Shown piece by piece: positions 44,913 to 61,529 of a DNA stretch of 64,000 nt (position 1 is the stretch's first letter; each line of letters opens with the position of its first letter). The stretch lies in NCBI GenBank assembly GCA_902559985.1, contig CACEJY010000002.1:1-64000 (forward strand), read 5' to 3'. The position numbers and the translations under genes were made by a program. This DNA is from an uncultured SAR116 cluster alpha proteobacterium. GTDB taxonomy: Bacteria; Pseudomonadota; Alphaproteobacteria; Puniceispirillales; Puniceispirillaceae. The notes beneath the pieces are model-generated. The model was not told the origin of the DNA, did no database searches, and saw only the letters and a program-made list of their open reading frames with translations.

Positions 44913-45665
44913 ATGATTGTTTTTTTGTTGTTGGGTGTATGTGTCCTTATTCAGTCTGTTTACGGGGTTGGGCTTCTTGTTTTTGGCACCCCTATTTTAC
45001 TTCTGAATGGATTAGAATTCTCGGCAGTTCTTGGTGTGTTGTTGCCATCATCTATTATACTCTCTCTTTTTCAAATTATTGAAACCCGTTCCGTAACGGT
45101 TAAAGAAGCTAAAATGGGTCCGATAGTTGTGTTGGGCATTATTTGTGGATTTCTAATTCTTTCACAAACTAAAGCTCCATCCCAAATGTCACTAGTTATG
45201 GCTATCTCCATGTTTTCAGTGGCAGTTCTCAGATCTATCCCCGGGGTGATAGATAGGATAGGTAAGTGGTTATCATATCACAGGCGTGTTTTCCATTTTA
45301 CCAACGCTGTATTTCATGGCTTTTCTAATCTTGGGGGCACACTTTTGACGATCTATAGTACGTCAGTGTACAAAGAGCAGTTGCTAGCCTTGCGATGTAC
45401 TTCAGTTTTCTACTTAATATACGCCATATCACAAATTGCCGTCCTTTTGGTGTTGGGCGAAGGCGAAGGCCTTTTCAAGGGTTTGTTTTTTTTGCCCGTT
45501 ACTGCGCTGATTTACATTTCTATTGGTCGTAAATCGTTCAAGTTGATAGGGCCCGCACTTTTTTATCGCCTGACCACTCTTTTTTTCTGGTTAGCGGCAT
45601 TCGTTTTTTTTGTAAAAGCAACAATGTTTGAAAAACAAATGAGTAAGTTTTTGGAATGGGTGTAA
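44913..45665 (+). CDS. TSUP family (TauE/SafE-like) membrane permease
   Basis: Polytopic; VYGVGLLVFGTPILLLNGLEFSAVLGVLLPSS pattern. Confidence 0.72.
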   Translation: MIVFLLLGVCVLIQSVYGVGLLVFGTPILLLNGLEFSAVLGVLLPSSIILSLFQIIETRSVTVKEAKMGPIVVLGIICGFLILSQTKAPSQMSLVMAISMFSVAVLRSIPGVIDRIGKWLSYHRRVFHFTNAVFHGFSNLGGTLLTIYSTSVYKEQLLALRCTSVFYLIYAISQIAVLLVLGEGEGLFKGLFFLPVTALIYISIGRKSFKLIGPALFYRLTTLFFWLAAFVFFVKATMFEKQMSKFLEWV

Positions 45666-45670
45666 AAAGC

Positions 45671-46132
45671 ATGATATCTAGACGTGATGGCATATGGTTT
45701 TACGGGCTTTCTGGATCAGGTAAAACTTTCGCTTCAGCCGTTGTTTCAGGTGTTGTGAAGAATGGGTTTATTATTGATGGAGATGAGGTGCGAAGTTTAG
45801 TTAGTATGGATCTTGGTTATGAAATGAAAGACCGAGTGGTTCAGTTGAATCGTGTTTTAGGCATTGCACAACTTGCTAAAAACAACTCTCGTTTTCCAAT
45901 TGTTTCAACGGTTACTATGACGGATGATATTCTGAAGCGTTGCTACTCTCTGAATATAGATGTTGTCCAGATTGTCCGGCCTATCGAAACTCTAAGGAAG
46001 GTTCGTTCATTGTATGATGCCGAAGTAAATGTGGTTGGCAAGCATATCAAGTTGGAAGACTTAGAAACTCCAGTTATCCATAACGAGGGTGGGGGGACTT
46101 TTGAGAAACAAGTTGCAAAATATGTTGAGTAA
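45671..46132 (+). CDS. adenylylsulfate kinase-like protein
   Basis: IWFYGLSGSGKTFASAVV P-loop; IIDGDEVRSLVSMDLGYEMKDRVVQLNRVLGIAQLA. Confidence 0.82.
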   Translation: MISRRDGIWFYGLSGSGKTFASAVVSGVVKNGFIIDGDEVRSLVSMDLGYEMKDRVVQLNRVLGIAQLAKNNSRFPIVSTVTMTDDILKRCYSLNIDVVQIVRPIETLRKVRSLYDAEVNVVGKHIKLEDLETPVIHNEGGGTFEKQVAKYVE

Positions 46133-47096
46133 CGAGCTTAGCTTCTCACTTATTAATGCCGCCAACGTCCTTTCAGGGCTTTTAAGCAAGAACTTTGTTG
46201 GATCAGTTGCGGACTTTGAGCGATTTGATAGTTGTTTGCATGGAATTCCAATTCTCATCCCGGCAGATCCAGAACTCTTTGAATTCGAAAATGAAGATGT
46301 TTTCTCTATTGCCCCTGACAGAATTTTAAAAACTGTCTTTGGATTAAATGACCCTTTTTACATTGGCATGCGGCACGCTTTTAACAGATTCGACTTTCTG
46401 GCAAAGTTTTCAGTCCGGCCTAAATATGCTAGCTTCGTTGACGAAGTCGTCCAACAAAATTGTAATGCAACGAATTTTATCAAATCTTTGCAAAAAAAAT
46501 ATGATAATATTGGTGCGTTCCAAACCCGCAATATTCCTCATCTCGGGCATGAAGCAATTATTCAAAGAATGCTAGATTTTTGTGATCATTTAGTCGTTAA
46601 TCCAGTGCTTGGGCCGAAAAAAAATGGTGATGTAACTGTTGAGTGTCTGAGCTCTGTGTTTAAGAGGTTTGCAGAAAAAAAATATAAAAATTCAATTTCC
46701 TTCAAGCCAATTGTTGCAAACATGTTTTATGCCGGACCTCGAGAAGCGGTTCACCACGCTCTTATTCGCCAGAAAATGGGGTTTCAACATTTCACCGTTG
46801 GCCGAGATCACGCGGGTGCGCAGAAGGCGTATTTGCCTGATGCGGCCGTTCGATTAATCAAGAAGATCTCAAATAATCTGAAAATCAATGTGGTGTGCCA
46901 TGACGGTGCCGTATTTTGTGCCGCTTGCGACGATGTTGTACTAGCGGGGGACTGTAATCACGATCATGCTGAGTACCGGGATATTTCGGGAACTGCTTTT
47001 AGAGCAAGTATTGTTAAGAAAGAGATTTTCTTGCTTGCTGATAAAGAAATGCAAACTCTACTATTCAACAGTAAAATAAAGATTTTTGAAACATGA
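46122..47096 (+). CDS. ATP sulfurylase-like protein
   Basis: FQTRNIPHLGHEAIIQRML (QxRN..HxGH), MFYAGPREAVHHALIRQKMGFQHFTVGRDHAG. Confidence 0.88.
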   Translation: MLSNELSFSLINAANVLSGLLSKNFVGSVADFERFDSCLHGIPILIPADPELFEFENEDVFSIAPDRILKTVFGLNDPFYIGMRHAFNRFDFLAKFSVRPKYASFVDEVVQQNCNATNFIKSLQKKYDNIGAFQTRNIPHLGHEAIIQRMLDFCDHLVVNPVLGPKKNGDVTVECLSSVFKRFAEKKYKNSISFKPIVANMFYAGPREAVHHALIRQKMGFQHFTVGRDHAGAQKAYLPDAAVRLIKKISNNLKINVVCHDGAVFCAACDDVVLAGDCNHDHAEYRDISGTAFRASIVKKEIFLLADKEMQTLLFNSKIKIFET

Positions 47097-48445
47097 TAAA
47101 AATACTGGTTACTATTGGTCCAGCCTCTGAAAACCATTCTGCATTGTCAGGTTTTGCCGGAAAAACAAATCTTTTTAGGCTTAATGGAAGTCACAATACT
47201 CTTGATTGGCACGAGAGAACTGTTGCGAAAATTCGTGAGGTTTGTCCCGATGCTTTCATTCTAATGGATATTCCCGGGGTGAAGCCAAGAACGCTGAACA
47301 CCGAAATTATTAGAATTGAATGCGGTGAAGAGGTGGTTTTTGGCAAAGCCCCTAAAGACGACTCACGTTTGTCCATTGCTTTAACCAAGGAATTGCCGGT
47401 CACGGAGGGCTTTGTTGAGCTGTTCTCAGTTAATGATGGACAATATTTGTTTGATCTCATTGGCTCTGGTGATGGCTATATAATTGGGCGCTCACGTTCT
47501 GGTTTTGACCTCTTACCCAAAAAGGGAATCAATGTTCCAGGGAGTTCTTATGATGAAACAAAGCAGCTAGAAATATATGAGGACTTCATAAAAAAGCTAG
47601 GTGACCTCGATATAGACGCACTTGGTCTTAGTTTTGTGCAAACCGGTGATTTGGTGAATTCGGTTCGTCAGATTGCGCCAAAGATGGTGCTTATATCGAA
47701 GCTTGAAAACTCTGAAGGGCTTCGTAATTGCAAAGAAGTTATTGCAGAGTCTGACGCTATTATGATTGATCGCGGTGACTTGGCTGCAGAAATTGGGCTT
47801 ACACATCTTTATGACGCTGTAGAAATTATTTCTGAAGCGACGAAGTCTCGAGGCAAGCCATTGATAATGGCCACTGAGAATTTGGAGTCAATGATTAACC
47901 GGCAGGTCCCCTCAAAAAGTGAAGTAATGTCTATTGCACATTCGGCAGCGATTGGATCTGATTGTATCATGCTTAGCGAGGAGACCGCTACGGCTGAAAA
48001 TGGACCTGTTATTGTTGATTGGCTTAATCAATTCCTAAGTAGGCCAGATGGTTTAGTGAGGCGAGAGGTCAATCCAACTAGGGGGCAGGAATTTCCAGAA
48101 ATCTGGGATCTTCTTATGCAAATTGGTGAGATGCCAGTAGTTTTAATGACCAAATCTGGCTATGCCCTTTTCGAATATGTTGCGACCAAACCCTATGGTG
48201 ATGTTGTTATTGTGACTAACAACAAAAAGGTTATAAAGATTGCGCAGCTTTTGTCCAACAATCTGGAAGTAATCGTTGCAGAAGTGTCAAGTAATACACC
48301 AATTGAGACAATCTGGGGCGTTATCAAGGAAAACAAAGATAATTTTTTTGCTAAAAGTGAACGCATCGCGGCAATCTATGTCTCAAAATACGTAAGTTCC
48401 GCACGTGCAAATTGCCTAACTATCTTTCACCGCGAAGATTTTTAA
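47093..48445 (+). CDS. pyruvate kinase-like protein (divergent paralogue)
   Basis: ILVTIGPAS...FRLNGSHNT..., LISKLENSEGLRN, AIMIDRGDLAAEIG, PLIMATENLESMI, CIMLSEETATAENGP. Confidence 0.87.
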   Translation: MIKILVTIGPASENHSALSGFAGKTNLFRLNGSHNTLDWHERTVAKIREVCPDAFILMDIPGVKPRTLNTEIIRIECGEEVVFGKAPKDDSRLSIALTKELPVTEGFVELFSVNDGQYLFDLIGSGDGYIIGRSRSGFDLLPKKGINVPGSSYDETKQLEIYEDFIKKLGDLDIDALGLSFVQTGDLVNSVRQIAPKMVLISKLENSEGLRNCKEVIAESDAIMIDRGDLAAEIGLTHLYDAVEIISEATKSRGKPLIMATENLESMINRQVPSKSEVMSIAHSAAIGSDCIMLSEETATAENGPVIVDWLNQFLSRPDGLVRREVNPTRGQEFPEIWDLLMQIGEMPVVLMTKSGYALFEYVATKPYGDVVIVTNNKKVIKIAQLLSNNLEVIVAEVSSNTPIETIWGVIKENKDNFFAKSERIAAIYVSKYVSSARANCLTIFHREDF

Positions 48446-50339: not shown

Positions 50340-51361
<1,022 letters not shown>

Positions 51362-51406: not shown

Positions 51407-52601
51407 ATGTCGGACTCGAGAACAATATATCATTACGGTGCCCCTTATTTGGAGCAAGATGATATCGACGCAGTGGTTGACGTTCTGAAATCAAAATGGT
51501 TAACGACAGGACCAAAAGTATCTGCATTTGAGGCGAAGCTCAATGAAATTTTAGGCTGTAAATATAGCGTCGCTTGCTCTAATGGTTCGTCCGCGCTTTA
51601 TTTGGCAAGCAAAGCGCTTGATTTTGCTGATGGAGACATCGTTATCGTACCATCAATTACATTCCTCGCCACGGCAAATGCGCCACATATGGCAGGTGCA
51701 AAAGTGGTTTTTGCCGACGTTTGTCCCAAGAAAGGGATTATCACACCAGAGACTTTTGCTGGAGCAATAGATAGAGCTGAAGGGACTGTTCGTGCGGTGT
51801 TTCCGGTCCATCTCAACGGAGTTCCTTGTGCAATGGATTCTATTGCTGACGTCGCTAATCAACACAACATCACTATTGTTGAGGACGCTTGTCATGCAAT
51901 TGGCGGCGGTTATTCTATTGATGGATCAATGGTTGGCAGTTGTGCACATTCATCGATGAGCACCTTTTCTTTTCATCCGGTGAAAAACCTTGCCACAGGT
52001 GAGGGGGGGGGCTGTCACAACAAATGACGAGCTTTTGTCTGAACGGTTGCGGCTCCTGCGTAATCATGGAATGCAGAGAGGCTTGCCCGAAAAAAACAGT
52101 GTTGAGGGTGCTCCAGTTGGGTTCGAAAAACTTTTCTATCATATTGATGAGCCGAGTCTTAATTTTCGTCTGAGTGATATAAGCTGCGCACTAGGTATAA
52201 GTCAGCTTCAAAAATTAAATAGGTTTCTTGACAAACGAGAATTACTCAAAAAACGTTATGAGAGTATCCTAGACACCTATAACCCTTACATAATACCTGT
52301 GAAGTGCAGAGGTCAAGTTTCACCAGCATGGCACTTGTCGCCCGTACAAATCGATTATGTACACTTTGGTACTACTCGGGATAGGGTTATGTCTACTCTT
52401 GCAGAATTGGGCATTTACACGCAGGTGCATTACTATCCTGTTCATAAGCAGCCGTATTACAGGCGTGAATGTAGCAAGACTGAATTGCCGGGCGCTCAGG
52501 CATATTATGCGAAAACCCTGTCGTTGCCACTGCATTACGCGCTGGACATTACGGATGTGGATTACATTTGTGAAAAATTACTTGGGTGCCTAATGAGATG
52601 A
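51407..52601 (+). pseudogene. pseC: UDP-4-amino-4,6-dideoxy-AltNAc aminotransferase, frameshifted at poly-G tract (possibly phase-OFF)
   Basis: YHYGAPYLEQDDIDAVVDVLKSKWLTTGPKV...FSFHPVKNLATGEGG | AVTTNDELLSERLRLLRNHG; frame breaks at G9. Confidence 0.92.
52003..52011 (+). repeat. poly-G tract, G9, inside pseC
   Basis: gtgaGGGGGGGGGctg; eight Gs would restore GEGGAVTTND. Confidence 0.95.
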
Positions 52602-53389
52602 CAAAAACCGTCGCAATCGTTCAGGCTCGCATGGGTTCTTCCCGCCTTCCAAAAAAAATCCTAAAACGTTTGGGGAGTAAGACAATCCTCCAAACAGTTC
52701 TTGAGCGTTTGCAACTTGCAACAAGAGTAGATCAGGTTTGTTGTGCAACCAGTGATTTAGCCGAGGATGACGAAGTCGTAGATGAAGCAAAAAGGCATGG
52801 CTTTTATGTGTTTCGAGGAGAGCATCAAGATGTCCTTAATCGATATGCCACTGCTGCAAAAGAACTCCAGGCACACATCGTTGTGCGTGTAACGTCAGAC
52901 TGTCCAAGTGTTGACCCAAAAATAGTTGATGACCTGCTGGATTTGAGAGAGCGCATGAATGCTGACTATGCTTCGAACAACATGCCACGTTCATGGCCTA
53001 TAGGTATGGATGTTGAAGTTTTTACAAATGCGGCTCTTCAGGAAGCGAACAGTTGCGCCATCAAGGCAGATCATCGCGAACATGTGTCTCCTTGGATGCG
53101 CGTTGCAAAAACCCTTCGACGAACAAATTTAAGTGCAAGGCAAGTTGTATTAAATAATATCAGGCTTACAATTGATTACCTTGATGATTATAAATTTTTC
53201 GAACATCTGATCGCATGCGCCCCTGGAAAAGAACTACCACTATCCTTTGAAGATACGATGAGTATCATTCAATCAAACTCCGTTTTGATGAATTATTTTT
53301 CTTCCACGAAAATAGTAGAAGCAAAATATGATTTTGGGGTTTTGGAAGACGTGAAAATCCATCCTGAAATTGTAAATGATAACCCTTAA
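52598..53389 (+). CDS. SpsF/PseF-like cytidylyltransferase family protein
   Basis: VAIVQARMGSSRLPKKILKRLGSKTILQTVLERL...VVRVTSDCPSVDP; ATGA-type overlap with pseC. Confidence 0.87.
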   Translation: MTKTVAIVQARMGSSRLPKKILKRLGSKTILQTVLERLQLATRVDQVCCATSDLAEDDEVVDEAKRHGFYVFRGEHQDVLNRYATAAKELQAHIVVRVTSDCPSVDPKIVDDLLDLRERMNADYASNNMPRSWPIGMDVEVFTNAALQEANSCAIKADHREHVSPWMRVAKTLRRTNLSARQVVLNNIRLTIDYLDDYKFFEHLIACAPGKELPLSFEDTMSIIQSNSVLMNYFSSTKIVEAKYDFGVLEDVKIHPEIVNDNP

Positions 53390-57288: not shown

Positions 57289-59010
57289 ATGCGTGTATTA
57301 TTCCGAGTTGATGCATCACGCAGCATAGGCTTCGGTCATTTGTCTCGCTGCCTAGTTCTTGCTAATGCACTGAGAAAAAGTGGTGATACCTGCGTATTCG
57401 CATGTCAATCTCTCAGTGGCGACGGCATCTCCAAAATTGAAAATGAGGGTTTTGACATAGTGAAATTGTCATCAATGTTGCAATCTGGTAATCATGATTT
57501 TGTCTTTGGTGATAGGCTCTCTTGGCCTTCTGGTGTTTTAGAAAAAGACCGTGTGGCAGTAGCAAAAATTCTCAAGAAAAGGCAATTTGACTGGGTTGTG
57601 ATCGACCATTACGGAATAGATGTAGAATGGCAAAAAATGATTCCTCCGGGTGTGAAAGTAATGGTTTTAGAGGATGCCCCTTTACGAAAACACGTCTGCC
57701 AAATTCTACTTGATCAAAGTCATGGCCGATCTAGGCAAGCTTACGCGGATTTAGTTTCTGATCAGACAAAATGTCTAATAGGTACACAATATGCGTTAAT
57801 CCGAGATGAATTTTTTGTATCCAGAGCGCGCCGTGGTAATATAGTAGCACCAAATAAAATCAGTCGCCTTTTTGTCAATTTTGGTGCTGCGGATCAGTTT
57901 CAAGTCACACCGGGGGTTGTAGCCGCATTGCTTGATAATGAGCACCTGAAAAACACTCAACTAGTCGTAGTTTCAGGAAAGCACTCCAATAGCTTGCCGG
58001 CACTTCAAGAAATGCAGATGAGGTACGGGAAACGCATTCATTTAGTTGTTGAACCTCGAAAAATGGCAGTTTTAATGTGTGGGTGCGATGCGGCGGTAGG
58101 TGCTGGTGGTGTATCTGCAGTCGAAAGATGTGTAATTGGACTACCTTCAATTATTATTCCTCTTGCAGATAATCAACGGCAGATGGCTGAGGGTCTCTGT
58201 GCGCAGGGAGCGGCCATTCTTTGTGAATTGGACTTTCAGAGAGATGTTGGGCCGCAGATTGATCCAGCTATAAATGAGCTTTGCCAAATAGGGAAAATTG
58301 CAAAGTGCCAAAAACAAGCCCTTGAGGTTTGTGATGGTCTTGGTGTGCAAAGAGTCATCAATTTACTTCAGACGAAAAAAATCACAATCTTAATGGAAGT
58401 AAATTCTTGGCTTGAGAGACATGTAAACTCTTTAAGTCGGGAGTTACAAGAGCAAGGGTATATTGTAAATGTGGTAACCGATGAGGCTCAAATTTCAAGC
58501 GGTTGGCTTTGTTTTATTCTGGGTTTCCCGAAAATTGTGAGCAGAAAAACACTGAATTTAAACATCCATAACCTAGTAGTGCACGAGAGTGATCTGCCGA
58601 ATGGCCGGGGCTTTGCGCCAATTGCGTGGCAAATTTTGGAGGGCAGGAGTTCTATTACAATGTGTCTAATAGAAGCCATAAATGCTGTTGATGCAGGGGA
58701 TATCTGGTTACGACACAAGTTAAGGATTGAGGAGCATGATCTCCTTATTGATTGGCGGGAGCGTCAGGGTCTTGAAACTGTAAAGATGTGTCTCAAATTC
58801 GTCGAGAGGTTTTGGGCTCTCTCGAGTAGCCCCCAAAAAGGACAACCTTCTTTTTATCGGCGAAGATCATCACAAGATAGCGAACTTGACACCAGCCGTT
58901 CTCTACACGACCAATTCAATCTTCTCAGAGTTGTTGACAATCATAGATACCCCGCGTTCTTTCATTATAGGGGTAAGAAGTACATATTAGAAATAGAGAA
59001 AGACGGCTAA
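57289..59010 (+). CDS. pseG: fusion: PseG-like UDP-sugar hydrolase (N) plus formyltransferase domain (C)
   Basis: N: LFRVDASRSIGFGHLSRCLVLANALRKSGDTCVFAC...AAVGAGGVSAVERCVIGLPSIIIPLADNQ; C: NLVVHESDLPNGRGFAPIAWQILEGRSSITMCLIEAINAVDAGDIW. Confidence 0.9.
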   Translation: MRVLFRVDASRSIGFGHLSRCLVLANALRKSGDTCVFACQSLSGDGISKIENEGFDIVKLSSMLQSGNHDFVFGDRLSWPSGVLEKDRVAVAKILKKRQFDWVVIDHYGIDVEWQKMIPPGVKVMVLEDAPLRKHVCQILLDQSHGRSRQAYADLVSDQTKCLIGTQYALIRDEFFVSRARRGNIVAPNKISRLFVNFGAADQFQVTPGVVAALLDNEHLKNTQLVVVSGKHSNSLPALQEMQMRYGKRIHLVVEPRKMAVLMCGCDAAVGAGGVSAVERCVIGLPSIIIPLADNQRQMAEGLCAQGAAILCELDFQRDVGPQIDPAINELCQIGKIAKCQKQALEVCDGLGVQRVINLLQTKKITILMEVNSWLERHVNSLSRELQEQGYIVNVVTDEAQISSGWLCFILGFPKIVSRKTLNLNIHNLVVHESDLPNGRGFAPIAWQILEGRSSITMCLIEAINAVDAGDIWLRHKLRIEEHDLLIDWRERQGLETVKMCLKFVERFWALSSSPQKGQPSFYRRRSSQDSELDTSRSLHDQFNLLRVVDNHRYPAFFHYRGKKYILEIEKDG

Positions 59011-59011
59011 A

Positions 59012-59773
59012 ATGACAAATAGCGGAGCAATAAATGCAGTTGCAACTGACGCGCTTGAAACCCGCATTCAATCACAATCTGTCCAAAAAATTGACCTTGC
59101 AAGTTGGATTGGGGATAATCTTAACCTTAACCGAAATGACAAGATTTTAGAGCTTTGTTGTGGAACAGGGGGACAAACAACTATTTTCGCGAGAGAGGTA
59201 GATCAGGGTGTTATCGTTTGCAGTGACATAAATCCTGAGAGTATCGAAATAAATCGGAGTAATGTATCAAGTGATTGTATTCGTTACATTGAGAGTGATT
59301 TAGATGGTTTGCCAGAATTATTGGATGAAAACTTCGATCTGATTTTTTGTGGTTATGGATTTTATTATAGTGAGAACCCGAATGATCTGTTTCATCGGTT
59401 ACTGTCCCATCTCAATGAGGGAGGGAAGTTTGTTTTGGTTGGTCCAATTTTAGGCAACAACAGTGAACTTTATGCGCTTATGGAAGCATTAAATATAGAT
59501 ATCCCAAAGCCAGTCATCGAAAGCAGCGAACATTTTATGATTTCTATGCAGCGAATATTTTTAACCAGCCTTGACGACCTCATGCTTAGGCGCGTTAAGA
59601 ATGAAGTGACATTTGGAAATGCAGAAGCACTCTTGCGTTACTGGAAAAAGACTACTTTTTATGTGCCAGGTTTGGATGCTAAGTTTTTGAAGCTGGCCCC
59701 GCAGTTTTTCAACAAGCGGTTTACTTTGACTAAATCGATTGCTTTTCTTGAGGGGAAAAAGGGGGGAGCATGA
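59012..59773 (+). CDS. class I SAM-dependent methyltransferase
   Basis: DKILELCCGTGGQTTIFAREVDQGVIVCSDINPESI. Confidence 0.85.
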   Translation: MTNSGAINAVATDALETRIQSQSVQKIDLASWIGDNLNLNRNDKILELCCGTGGQTTIFAREVDQGVIVCSDINPESIEINRSNVSSDCIRYIESDLDGLPELLDENFDLIFCGYGFYYSENPNDLFHRLLSHLNEGGKFVLVGPILGNNSELYALMEALNIDIPKPVIESSEHFMISMQRIFLTSLDDLMLRRVKNEVTFGNAEALLRYWKKTTFYVPGLDAKFLKLAPQFFNKRFTLTKSIAFLEGKKGGA

Positions 59774-60471
59774 AACCAATGTGGCCAATGCATGAAAAAA
59801 TTGCTGTAATTGTTGCCCACGCTGATGATGAGGTATTAGGTTGTGGTGGAACGATAGCGAGATTAGCTGATAGAGGATGTTGTATAAATTTACTGGTGCT
59901 TGCCGATGGAGAAACTGCGCGAACAGGCCTTAATCAAAAACAACAAGAAATGTTGATAAAAAAACGAAAAGATGCATGTAGAAATGTGGCATCTTTATTA
60001 GGTATTGAAAATTGTTCTTTCCTTGATTTGCCAGACAACCGACTTGACAGTGTTGATTTGCTGGATGTTACTCAAGCAGTGGAGATGTTTCTTTTCGAGC
60101 ATCGTCCAACGCTGGTTATAACTCAGCATTCCAGTGATCTGAATCTGGATCACGAAGTTACAAATAGGGCTGTTTTGACCGCAGTACGCCCAGTTGGCGG
60201 CCATCAGGTCTGTGAGTTGGTTACATTTGAAACTCCATCTTCGACTGAGTGGGCTTTCTCCGCAACACCAGGCTTCCGCCCAGATTCTTTTGTGGATGTT
60301 TCCACTTCATTTGACCGCAAGGTTGAGAGCTTAAAATACTATGCTGCAGAAATGCGTGAGGCTCCGCATCCACGGTCAATTTCCAGCTTGGAGGCATTAG
60401 GAAAATGGAGAGGATCTCAGTCAGGTTTTTATCTCGCTGAGGCTTTTGAAACGGTATTTAGGTTTATTTAG
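59770..60471 (+). CDS. PIG-L (LmbE-like) deacetylase
   Basis: IAVIVAHADDEVLGCGGTIARLADRG...HSSDLNLDHEVTNRAVLTAVRP. Confidence 0.93.
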   Translation: MKPMWPMHEKIAVIVAHADDEVLGCGGTIARLADRGCCINLLVLADGETARTGLNQKQQEMLIKKRKDACRNVASLLGIENCSFLDLPDNRLDSVDLLDVTQAVEMFLFEHRPTLVITQHSSDLNLDHEVTNRAVLTAVRPVGGHQVCELVTFETPSSTEWAFSATPGFRPDSFVDVSTSFDRKVESLKYYAAEMREAPHPRSISSLEALGKWRGSQSGFYLAEAFETVFRFI

Positions 60472-60479
60472 GAAATGAG

Positions 60480-61529
60480 ATGATTATAAATGGCAGAAAA
60501 GTCGGACCTGACAATCCACCGTATATCGTCGCAGAAATGTCAGCGAACCACAATGGTAGCATTGAAAATGCATTTAGAATTATTGATAAGGCGAAAGCAG
60601 CGGGTGCTCATGCAATAAAGATTCAAACCTATCGACCGGACACAATCACTATCGATTGCAAACATGAAGATTTTATGATCTCAGAGGGTCTTTGGAAAGG
60701 CCGTAGTCTCTATGATCTTTACGATTGGGCGCATACCCCTTGGGATTGGCATGAGCCGCTCTTCCAATATGCGAAGGAAGCGGATATTACCATATTCAGC
60801 ACACCTTTTGATGCGTCTGCAGTTGATCTTCTTGAGGAACTATCGGCACCAGCATACAAAATAGCATCATTTGAGCTCACAGATTTGAATTTAATTGAGT
60901 GCGTTGCTAACACCAAAAAACCAATGATTATGTCAACTGGAATGGCGAATCTTGCAGAAATTTCTGATGCCGTTGAGATTGCCCAAAAGAGCGGCTGCTC
61001 TCAGTTAGCTCTCTTGCATTGTGTAAGTTCATACCCTGCACCTGTAAAGGATTGTAACTTGCGGGTTATTGCCGATTTGGCAGAAAAATTTGGTGTCGTA
61101 GTCGGTCTTTCAGACCATAGTGTGGAAAATGCGGTCGCCATTAGTAGTGTGGCAATGGGAGCGTCAATAATCGAAAAGCACTTCACACTTGACAGACACG
61201 GTGGTGGTCCTGATGACAGTTTTTCTCTTGAACCGATTGATTTACAGATGCTTGTAGAGTCCAGCGCCACCGCATGGGAAGCTTTGGGTGGGGTGTCTTA
61301 CAATCAACAGGAGTCTGAGAAACCAAATTTAAAGTTTCGTAGGTCACTCTATTTTGTTGAGAATTTGAAGGCAGGTGAGGTGATCAGCTCAGCACATGTC
61401 CGGAGTATTCGTCCAGGCTTCGGGCTTGATCCAAAAAACCTTGATAACATTATCGGCTGTGTTGCTGCCCACGATATTGAAGTCGGTACTGCAGTGTCGT
61501 GGGAACATATCATAAAGACAGATTGTTAA
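60480..61529 (+). CDS. pseI: pseudaminic acid synthase (NeuB family, C-terminal SAF domain)
   Basis: PYIVAEMSANHNGSIENAFRIIDKAKAAGAHAIKIQTYRPDTITID...IIEKHFTLDRHGGGPDDSFSLEP...EVGTAVSWEHI. Confidence 0.95.
   Translation: MIINGRKVGPDNPPYIVAEMSANHNGSIENAFRIIDKAKAAGAHAIKIQTYRPDTITIDCKHEDFMISEGLWKGRSLYDLYDWAHTPWDWHEPLFQYAKEADITIFSTPFDASAVDLLEELSAPAYKIASFELTDLNLIECVANTKKPMIMSTGMANLAEISDAVEIAQKSGCSQLALLHCVSSYPAPVKDCNLRVIADLAEKFGVVVGLSDHSVENAVAISSVAMGASIIEKHFTLDRHGGGPDDSFSLEPIDLQMLVESSATAWEALGGVSYNQQESEKPNLKFRRSLYFVENLKAGEVISSAHVRSIRPGFGLDPKNLDNIIGCVAAHDIEVGTAVSWEHIIKTDC

Follow-up and report, generated by a model that had tools for sequence, protein, structure and literature searches.

The gene cluster around the fusion gene

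The window, the whole stretch of 64,000 nucleotides that was analysed, comes from an alphaproteobacterial metagenome-assembled genome (MAG) of 1.71 Mb in 93 contigs, which is 72.7% complete. It contains a gene cluster of the pseudaminic acid (Pse) type with the following features:

50355..51361, + strand: PseB dehydratase (TIGR03589, 371 bits on the first part; frameshift in the G10 run at 51029-51038)
51407..52601, + strand: PseC aminotransferase (TIGR03588, 230 + 183 bits; frameshift in the G9 run at 52003-52011)
52586..53389, + strand: cytidylyltransferase in the PseF position (CTP_transf_3, 93 bits)
57289..59010, + strand: pseG-formyltransferase fusion, a single intact ORF of 573 aa
57289..58368, + strand: PseG UDP-sugar hydrolase domain of the fusion (aa 1-360; TIGR03590 match, His17 kept)
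58375..59007, + strand: formyltransferase-type domain of the fusion (aa 363-573; Val430-x-His432-x-Ser-Asp435-Leu-Pro motif and Asp468)
59012..59773, + strand: class I methyltransferase of the same operon (Methyltransf_25, 51 bits)
59770..60471, + strand: PIG-L family de-N-acetylase (PF02585, 98.9 bits)
60480..61529, + strand: PseI pseudaminic acid synthase (TIGR03586, 495 bits, cut-off 340)

The cluster runs in the order pseB, pseC, cytidylyltransferase, a sulfatase-like gene, two more genes, the fusion, the methyltransferase, PIG-L and pseI. The cytidylyltransferase falls outside the TIGR03584 PseF family (19.3 bits vs a cut-off of 205.7). Inside the glycan island, adenylylsulfate kinase-like, ATP-sulfurylase-like and pyruvate-kinase-like genes follow each other at 45656-48445, the last of which is unexpected in such a setting. 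Directly after the first, past the window, comes a second nonulosonic acid cluster (L006 on contig C2, 7030-15867), with PseG-like, NeuB-like, probable amidotransferase, cytidylyltransferase, formyltransferase (with a canonical N-x-H) and aminotransferase genes. Runs of G split pseB (G10), pseC (G9) and the PseG-like gene of this second cluster (G10, L006 7525-7534). Phase variation, which these runs resemble in their slipped-strand look, was rejected since other G9-10 runs of the genome also break housekeeping genes, by sequence infB, formate-THF ligase and a penicillin-binding protein. Because the same kind of run interrupts the infB-like and formate-THF ligase-like genes, the frameshifts in pseB and pseC are probably homopolymer assembly errors rather than phase variation or decay.

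The original prediction had read the gene at 57289..59010 as a PseG-type hydrolase joined to a Formyl_trans_N-like half, and both assignments hold. Residues 1-301 belong to the PseG family with 249.1 bits on TIGR03590 (curated cut-off 153.55), and His17 aligns with the His of Campylobacter jejuni PseG (3HBM); the predicted activity of this domain is hydrolysis of UDP-2,4-diacyl-AltN. Formyl_trans_N (PF00551) scores 24.4 bits for the whole protein, under the gathering score of 26.1, and 28.0 bits, above it, when the C-domain is searched alone. An AlphaFold model of aa 363-573 (pLDDT 97.2) shows a complete formyltransferase fold with no sign of a degenerate C-domain, and Foldseek places it among the folate-dependent formyltransferases (top match 1ZGH, E 7e-15, TMq 0.80; ArnA 1YRW, E 2.6e-13). 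In the full-length model (pLDDT 93.1, pTM 0.83) low confidence is confined to the region near residues 61-80, and a helix (352-360) passes to a strand (364-368) with hardly any linker between the domains.

The FT family and the absence of PseH

Relatives of the C-domain, here termed the FT family, were collected by a scan of GTDB genomes, which gave 222, of which 80 were kept. They are spread over many phyla and adjoin pseG; in 44 of 81 loci the PseG match is followed on its own strand, within 350 bases, by the FT match. No NCBIfam model or other curated family covers them, and phages gave weak matches only. In 11 loci, the window included, PseG and FT are encoded in a single frame, in some cases with a GNAT between the two. 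Since the 11 fused loci need 11 state changes on the FT tree, in which gain and loss are not told apart, the PseG-FT fusion arose independently on several occasions. The window FT belongs to a clade of 29 Pseudomonadota FTs (SH-aLRT 98) in which it is the sole PseG-FT fusion and which holds no counted PseH-bearing locus. The fusion is absent from 120 related genomes; matches of any kind came from no more than 8 of the 121 genomes. The C-domain also has a relative encoded by itself (213 aa, ~40% identical), which lies elsewhere in the assembly beside a GNAT, away from known pse genes (L008 on contig C6, 4649-5290).

The usual C-terminal partner of PseG in Alphaproteobacteria is the GNAT PseH. 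Such PseG-PseH fusions resemble the present gene in joining PseG to an N-acyltransferase of the same pathway, but have a GNAT where this gene has a formyltransferase domain. No PseH (TIGR03585) GNAT domain is found within 4.5 kb of the fusion, and hence the earlier remark that no intact PseH/GNAT ORF is in view proved correct for the gene cluster. As to a PseH elsewhere in the genome, the best match in this MAG, at 72.7% completeness, is an orphan GNAT (C30:5284-5739) with 66.8 bits, below the cut-off of 93.1. On a profile of pseG-linked PseH it reaches 65 bits, nearby members scoring mostly 104-173, and its identity to pseG-linked PseH proteins does not exceed 28%; it is an unlikely candidate for the missing enzyme. 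The orphan GNAT sits beside a metallo-beta-lactamase-fold protein, next to glmS (L043, 5269-7062).

For a comparison across loci, a profile built from their pseG-linked GNATs was used on both sets, and a PseH-like GNAT was counted at a profile score of at least 80 and a distance of at most 4.5 kb; a GNAT-FT fusion (L119) was left out, having no pseG in reach. A PseH-like GNAT is present in 12/69 FT-plus pseG loci vs 30/36 FT-minus loci (Fisher p 7e-11, the loci not being phylogenetically independent). Within Alphaproteobacteria alone the counts are 0/13 vs 30/36 (p 1e-7, with the same dependence among loci), one of the 13 (L068) having a weaker GNAT of 68 bits. Furthermore, a complete genome of the same genus (G384) carries pseB-pseC-pseF-pseG-FT-pseI with a stand-alone FT; its PseC scores 572 bits, and its best PseH match genome-wide, partial and ~120 kb away, reaches 20.2 bits. 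Thermopetrobacter sp. TC1 (G395), where PseC scores 547 bits, likewise yields no match to PseH at E 1e-3. It is a cultured carrier of FT, as is Motiliproteus coralliicola, which shows no PseH either.

The exchange of formyl for acetyl has a precedent in PseJ, which formylates the 4-amine of UDP-AltNAc. In another alphaproteobacterium (G320, locus L048), a PseJ orthologue (PDB 6CI2, E 8e-51) is encoded between pseG and pseI, and the locus has no PseH-like gene. This genome was rejected as a second case of fusion because its formyltransferase is a separate protein, and it connects the slot with a protein that was deposited under the name of a formyltransferase of the Pse pathway. PseJ (PDB 6CI2, 6CI4, 6CI5, 6EDK) and the C-domain thus have in common the fold and the slot, namely a pse operon without PseH and a position next to pseG. 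Unlike the C-domain, PseJ is a separate protein with a canonical N-x-H, and the FT family profile scores it at 36.5 bits (E 4e-8), under ArnA (66-68 bits), so that the two are not orthologous by this measure.

PseH is rare beside FT, G384 does without it and the slot is taken by PseJ in G320, which makes N-formylation of the 4-amine the most likely role of the C-domain. On our preferred reading, to which we give a probability of roughly 0.7, the fusion is bifunctional and belongs to a pathway of the pseudaminic acid type, in which the C-domain would take the place of PseH. The case is built on sequence and structure comparison, which shows the two domains, the order of the genes, the lack of a neighbouring PseH at most FT loci and the repeated fusion; we infer the formyl donor, the acceptor, the order of reactions and the product. 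PseB and PseC would convert UDP-GlcNAc to UDP-4-amino-4,6-dideoxy-L-AltNAc, the C-domain would formylate the 4-amine, with N10-formyl-THF as the presumed donor, and the fused PseG domain would then cleave off UDP. PseI would condense the free sugar with phosphoenolpyruvate, so that the formyl group ends on N7. Several points count against this reading. PseH and FT occur together in the 12 loci mentioned above, some of them with PseG-GNAT-FT triple fusions, and FT thus cannot always substitute for PseH; moreover, the MAG is incomplete and holds the orphan PseH-like GNAT.

PIG-L, a second formyltransferase family and the N5 group

The PIG-L gene between the fusion and pseI offers the FT domain another amine, which also weighs against N-formylation of the 4-amine. 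The N-acetyl group at C2, which becomes C5 in the final sugar, may be exchanged for another group after deacetylation, and hence the final product is not necessarily 5-N-acetyl. PIG-L accompanies 44/69 FT-plus loci vs 6/36 FT-minus pseG loci. A second formyltransferase family, FT2, is found exclusively with PIG-L in this sample (33/33 loci), and 17 loci have PIG-L but not FT2. The window has PIG-L and lacks FT2, its usual companion.

PIG-L might therefore strip the C2 N-acetyl group and so free the future N5 for formylation by the FT domain, leaving the 4-amine to be acetylated by a PseH whose gene lies elsewhere. The presence of PIG-L in the operon and the orphan GNAT fit this arrangement, as do loci with PseH, FT and PIG-L and no FT2 (L080, L088, L089, L090, L100). 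However, FT also pairs with pseG where PIG-L is absent (21 loci lacking PseH, FT2 and PIG-L), the formyltransferase bound to PIG-L is FT2, and the orphan GNAT scores poorly against pseG-linked PseH. We thus consider N5-formylation by the fusion unlikely. On the simplest reading, the group on N7 is due to FT and that on N5 to PIG-L acting with FT2 or a different acyl donor.

More broadly, the FT family with its rebuilt active site (Val-x-His and a new Asp) might have taken over from PseH next to pseG in many phyla and been fused to PseG many times, forming a modular code with FT2 and PIG-L in which PseH or FT determines N7, and either nothing or PIG-L with FT2 determines N5. We put this forward tentatively, as an idea with less than even odds. 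If true, Pse5Ac7Ac, Pse5Ac7Fo, Pse5Fo7Ac and Pse5Fo7Fo could be predicted straight from gene content, and such a rule would be testable. The acyl groups of pseudaminic acid shape the recognition of surface polysaccharides and flagella, and their prediction from genes is poor at present: the FT family has no model, and a formyltransferase-like gene on a plasmid of Mariluticola halotolerans (L191, 10156-10863) is annotated 'hypothetical protein'. The same plasmid also bears pseB, pseC, pseF, PIG-L, pseG and a synthase.

Active site and reading frame of the fusion

Catalysis in the formyltransferase superfamily relies on an Asn-x-His motif, with Asn two residues before His, and a downstream Asp. 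In ArnA these residues are N102, H104 and D140. The original prediction had all three retained in the fusion, which is true of His432 and Asp468 only. The site of the catalytic Asn (H-2) is Val430, and the Asn that had been noted is Asn428, four residues before His432. The C-domain thus lacks the Asn-x-His ... Asp signature of Formyl_trans_N. Among 76 aligned FT relatives, Val occupies H-2 in 75, Asn H-4 in 64 and Asp H+3 in 70, and the equivalents of His432 and Asp468 are invariant (76/76), giving V-x-H-x-S-D-L-P where others have N-x-H-x-S-L-L-P. This is not a decaying family, but its catalysis must differ in detail from that of canonical formyltransferases. The absent Asn poses a real mechanistic question, and its replacement in nearly all of the family is a further point against N-formylation.

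Hence, the C-domain might transfer a group other than formyl or act on a later intermediate, a reading with which the altered motif, the extra Asp at H+3 and the position of the family outside all curated ones are consistent. It is quite improbable given that the nearest folds are folate-dependent formyltransferases and that His and Asp are kept without exception. ArnA and the sugar N-formyltransferases VioF, WbkC and FdtF share the fold and the catalytic His and Asp with the C-domain, which differs from them in having Val for Asn, an N-terminal part ~35 residues shorter and another operon. The closest solved fold, 1ZGH from C. thermocellum (deposited as a methionyl-tRNA formyltransferase), and the FT2 family also lack Asn at H-2 and carry Asp at H+3; FT2 differs from FT in its partner, PIG-L instead of pseG.

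That the fused frame is an assembly artefact, with a base missing or extra at the A7 run that is the only run at the junction and two separate genes of unchanged function, is very unlikely: although the assembly probably carries frameshift errors at G9-10 runs and close relatives have separate overlapping genes, long ORFs of the window remain intact across 24 A/T runs of 7-8, the PseG DG motif is separated from the start of FT by a similar distance in the window and in the fusions L075, L084 and L103, and the domains join compactly in the model. In three further genomes, from other phyla, the two domains meet at the same junction, likewise in frame.

The proposal that the fusion N-formylates the 4-amine instead of PseH is therefore largely right, with PseH absence, G384 and the PseJ slot on its side, and the intact Asn-His-Asp triad is the part that did not survive. 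The exchange of formyl for acetyl was already known; new are the fused architecture, its repeated origin, an unnamed FT family whose active site is altered, and the complication by PIG-L. Among the papers searched, none deals with the biosynthesis of Pse5Ac7Fo. Chemically, N7-formyl Pse is known from Pseudoalteromonas distincta, as cited in PMC3210612. Two further loci (L061 and L066) carry an acyl-activating set behind the FT gene; in our own reading this set might supply a 3-hydroxyacyl group.
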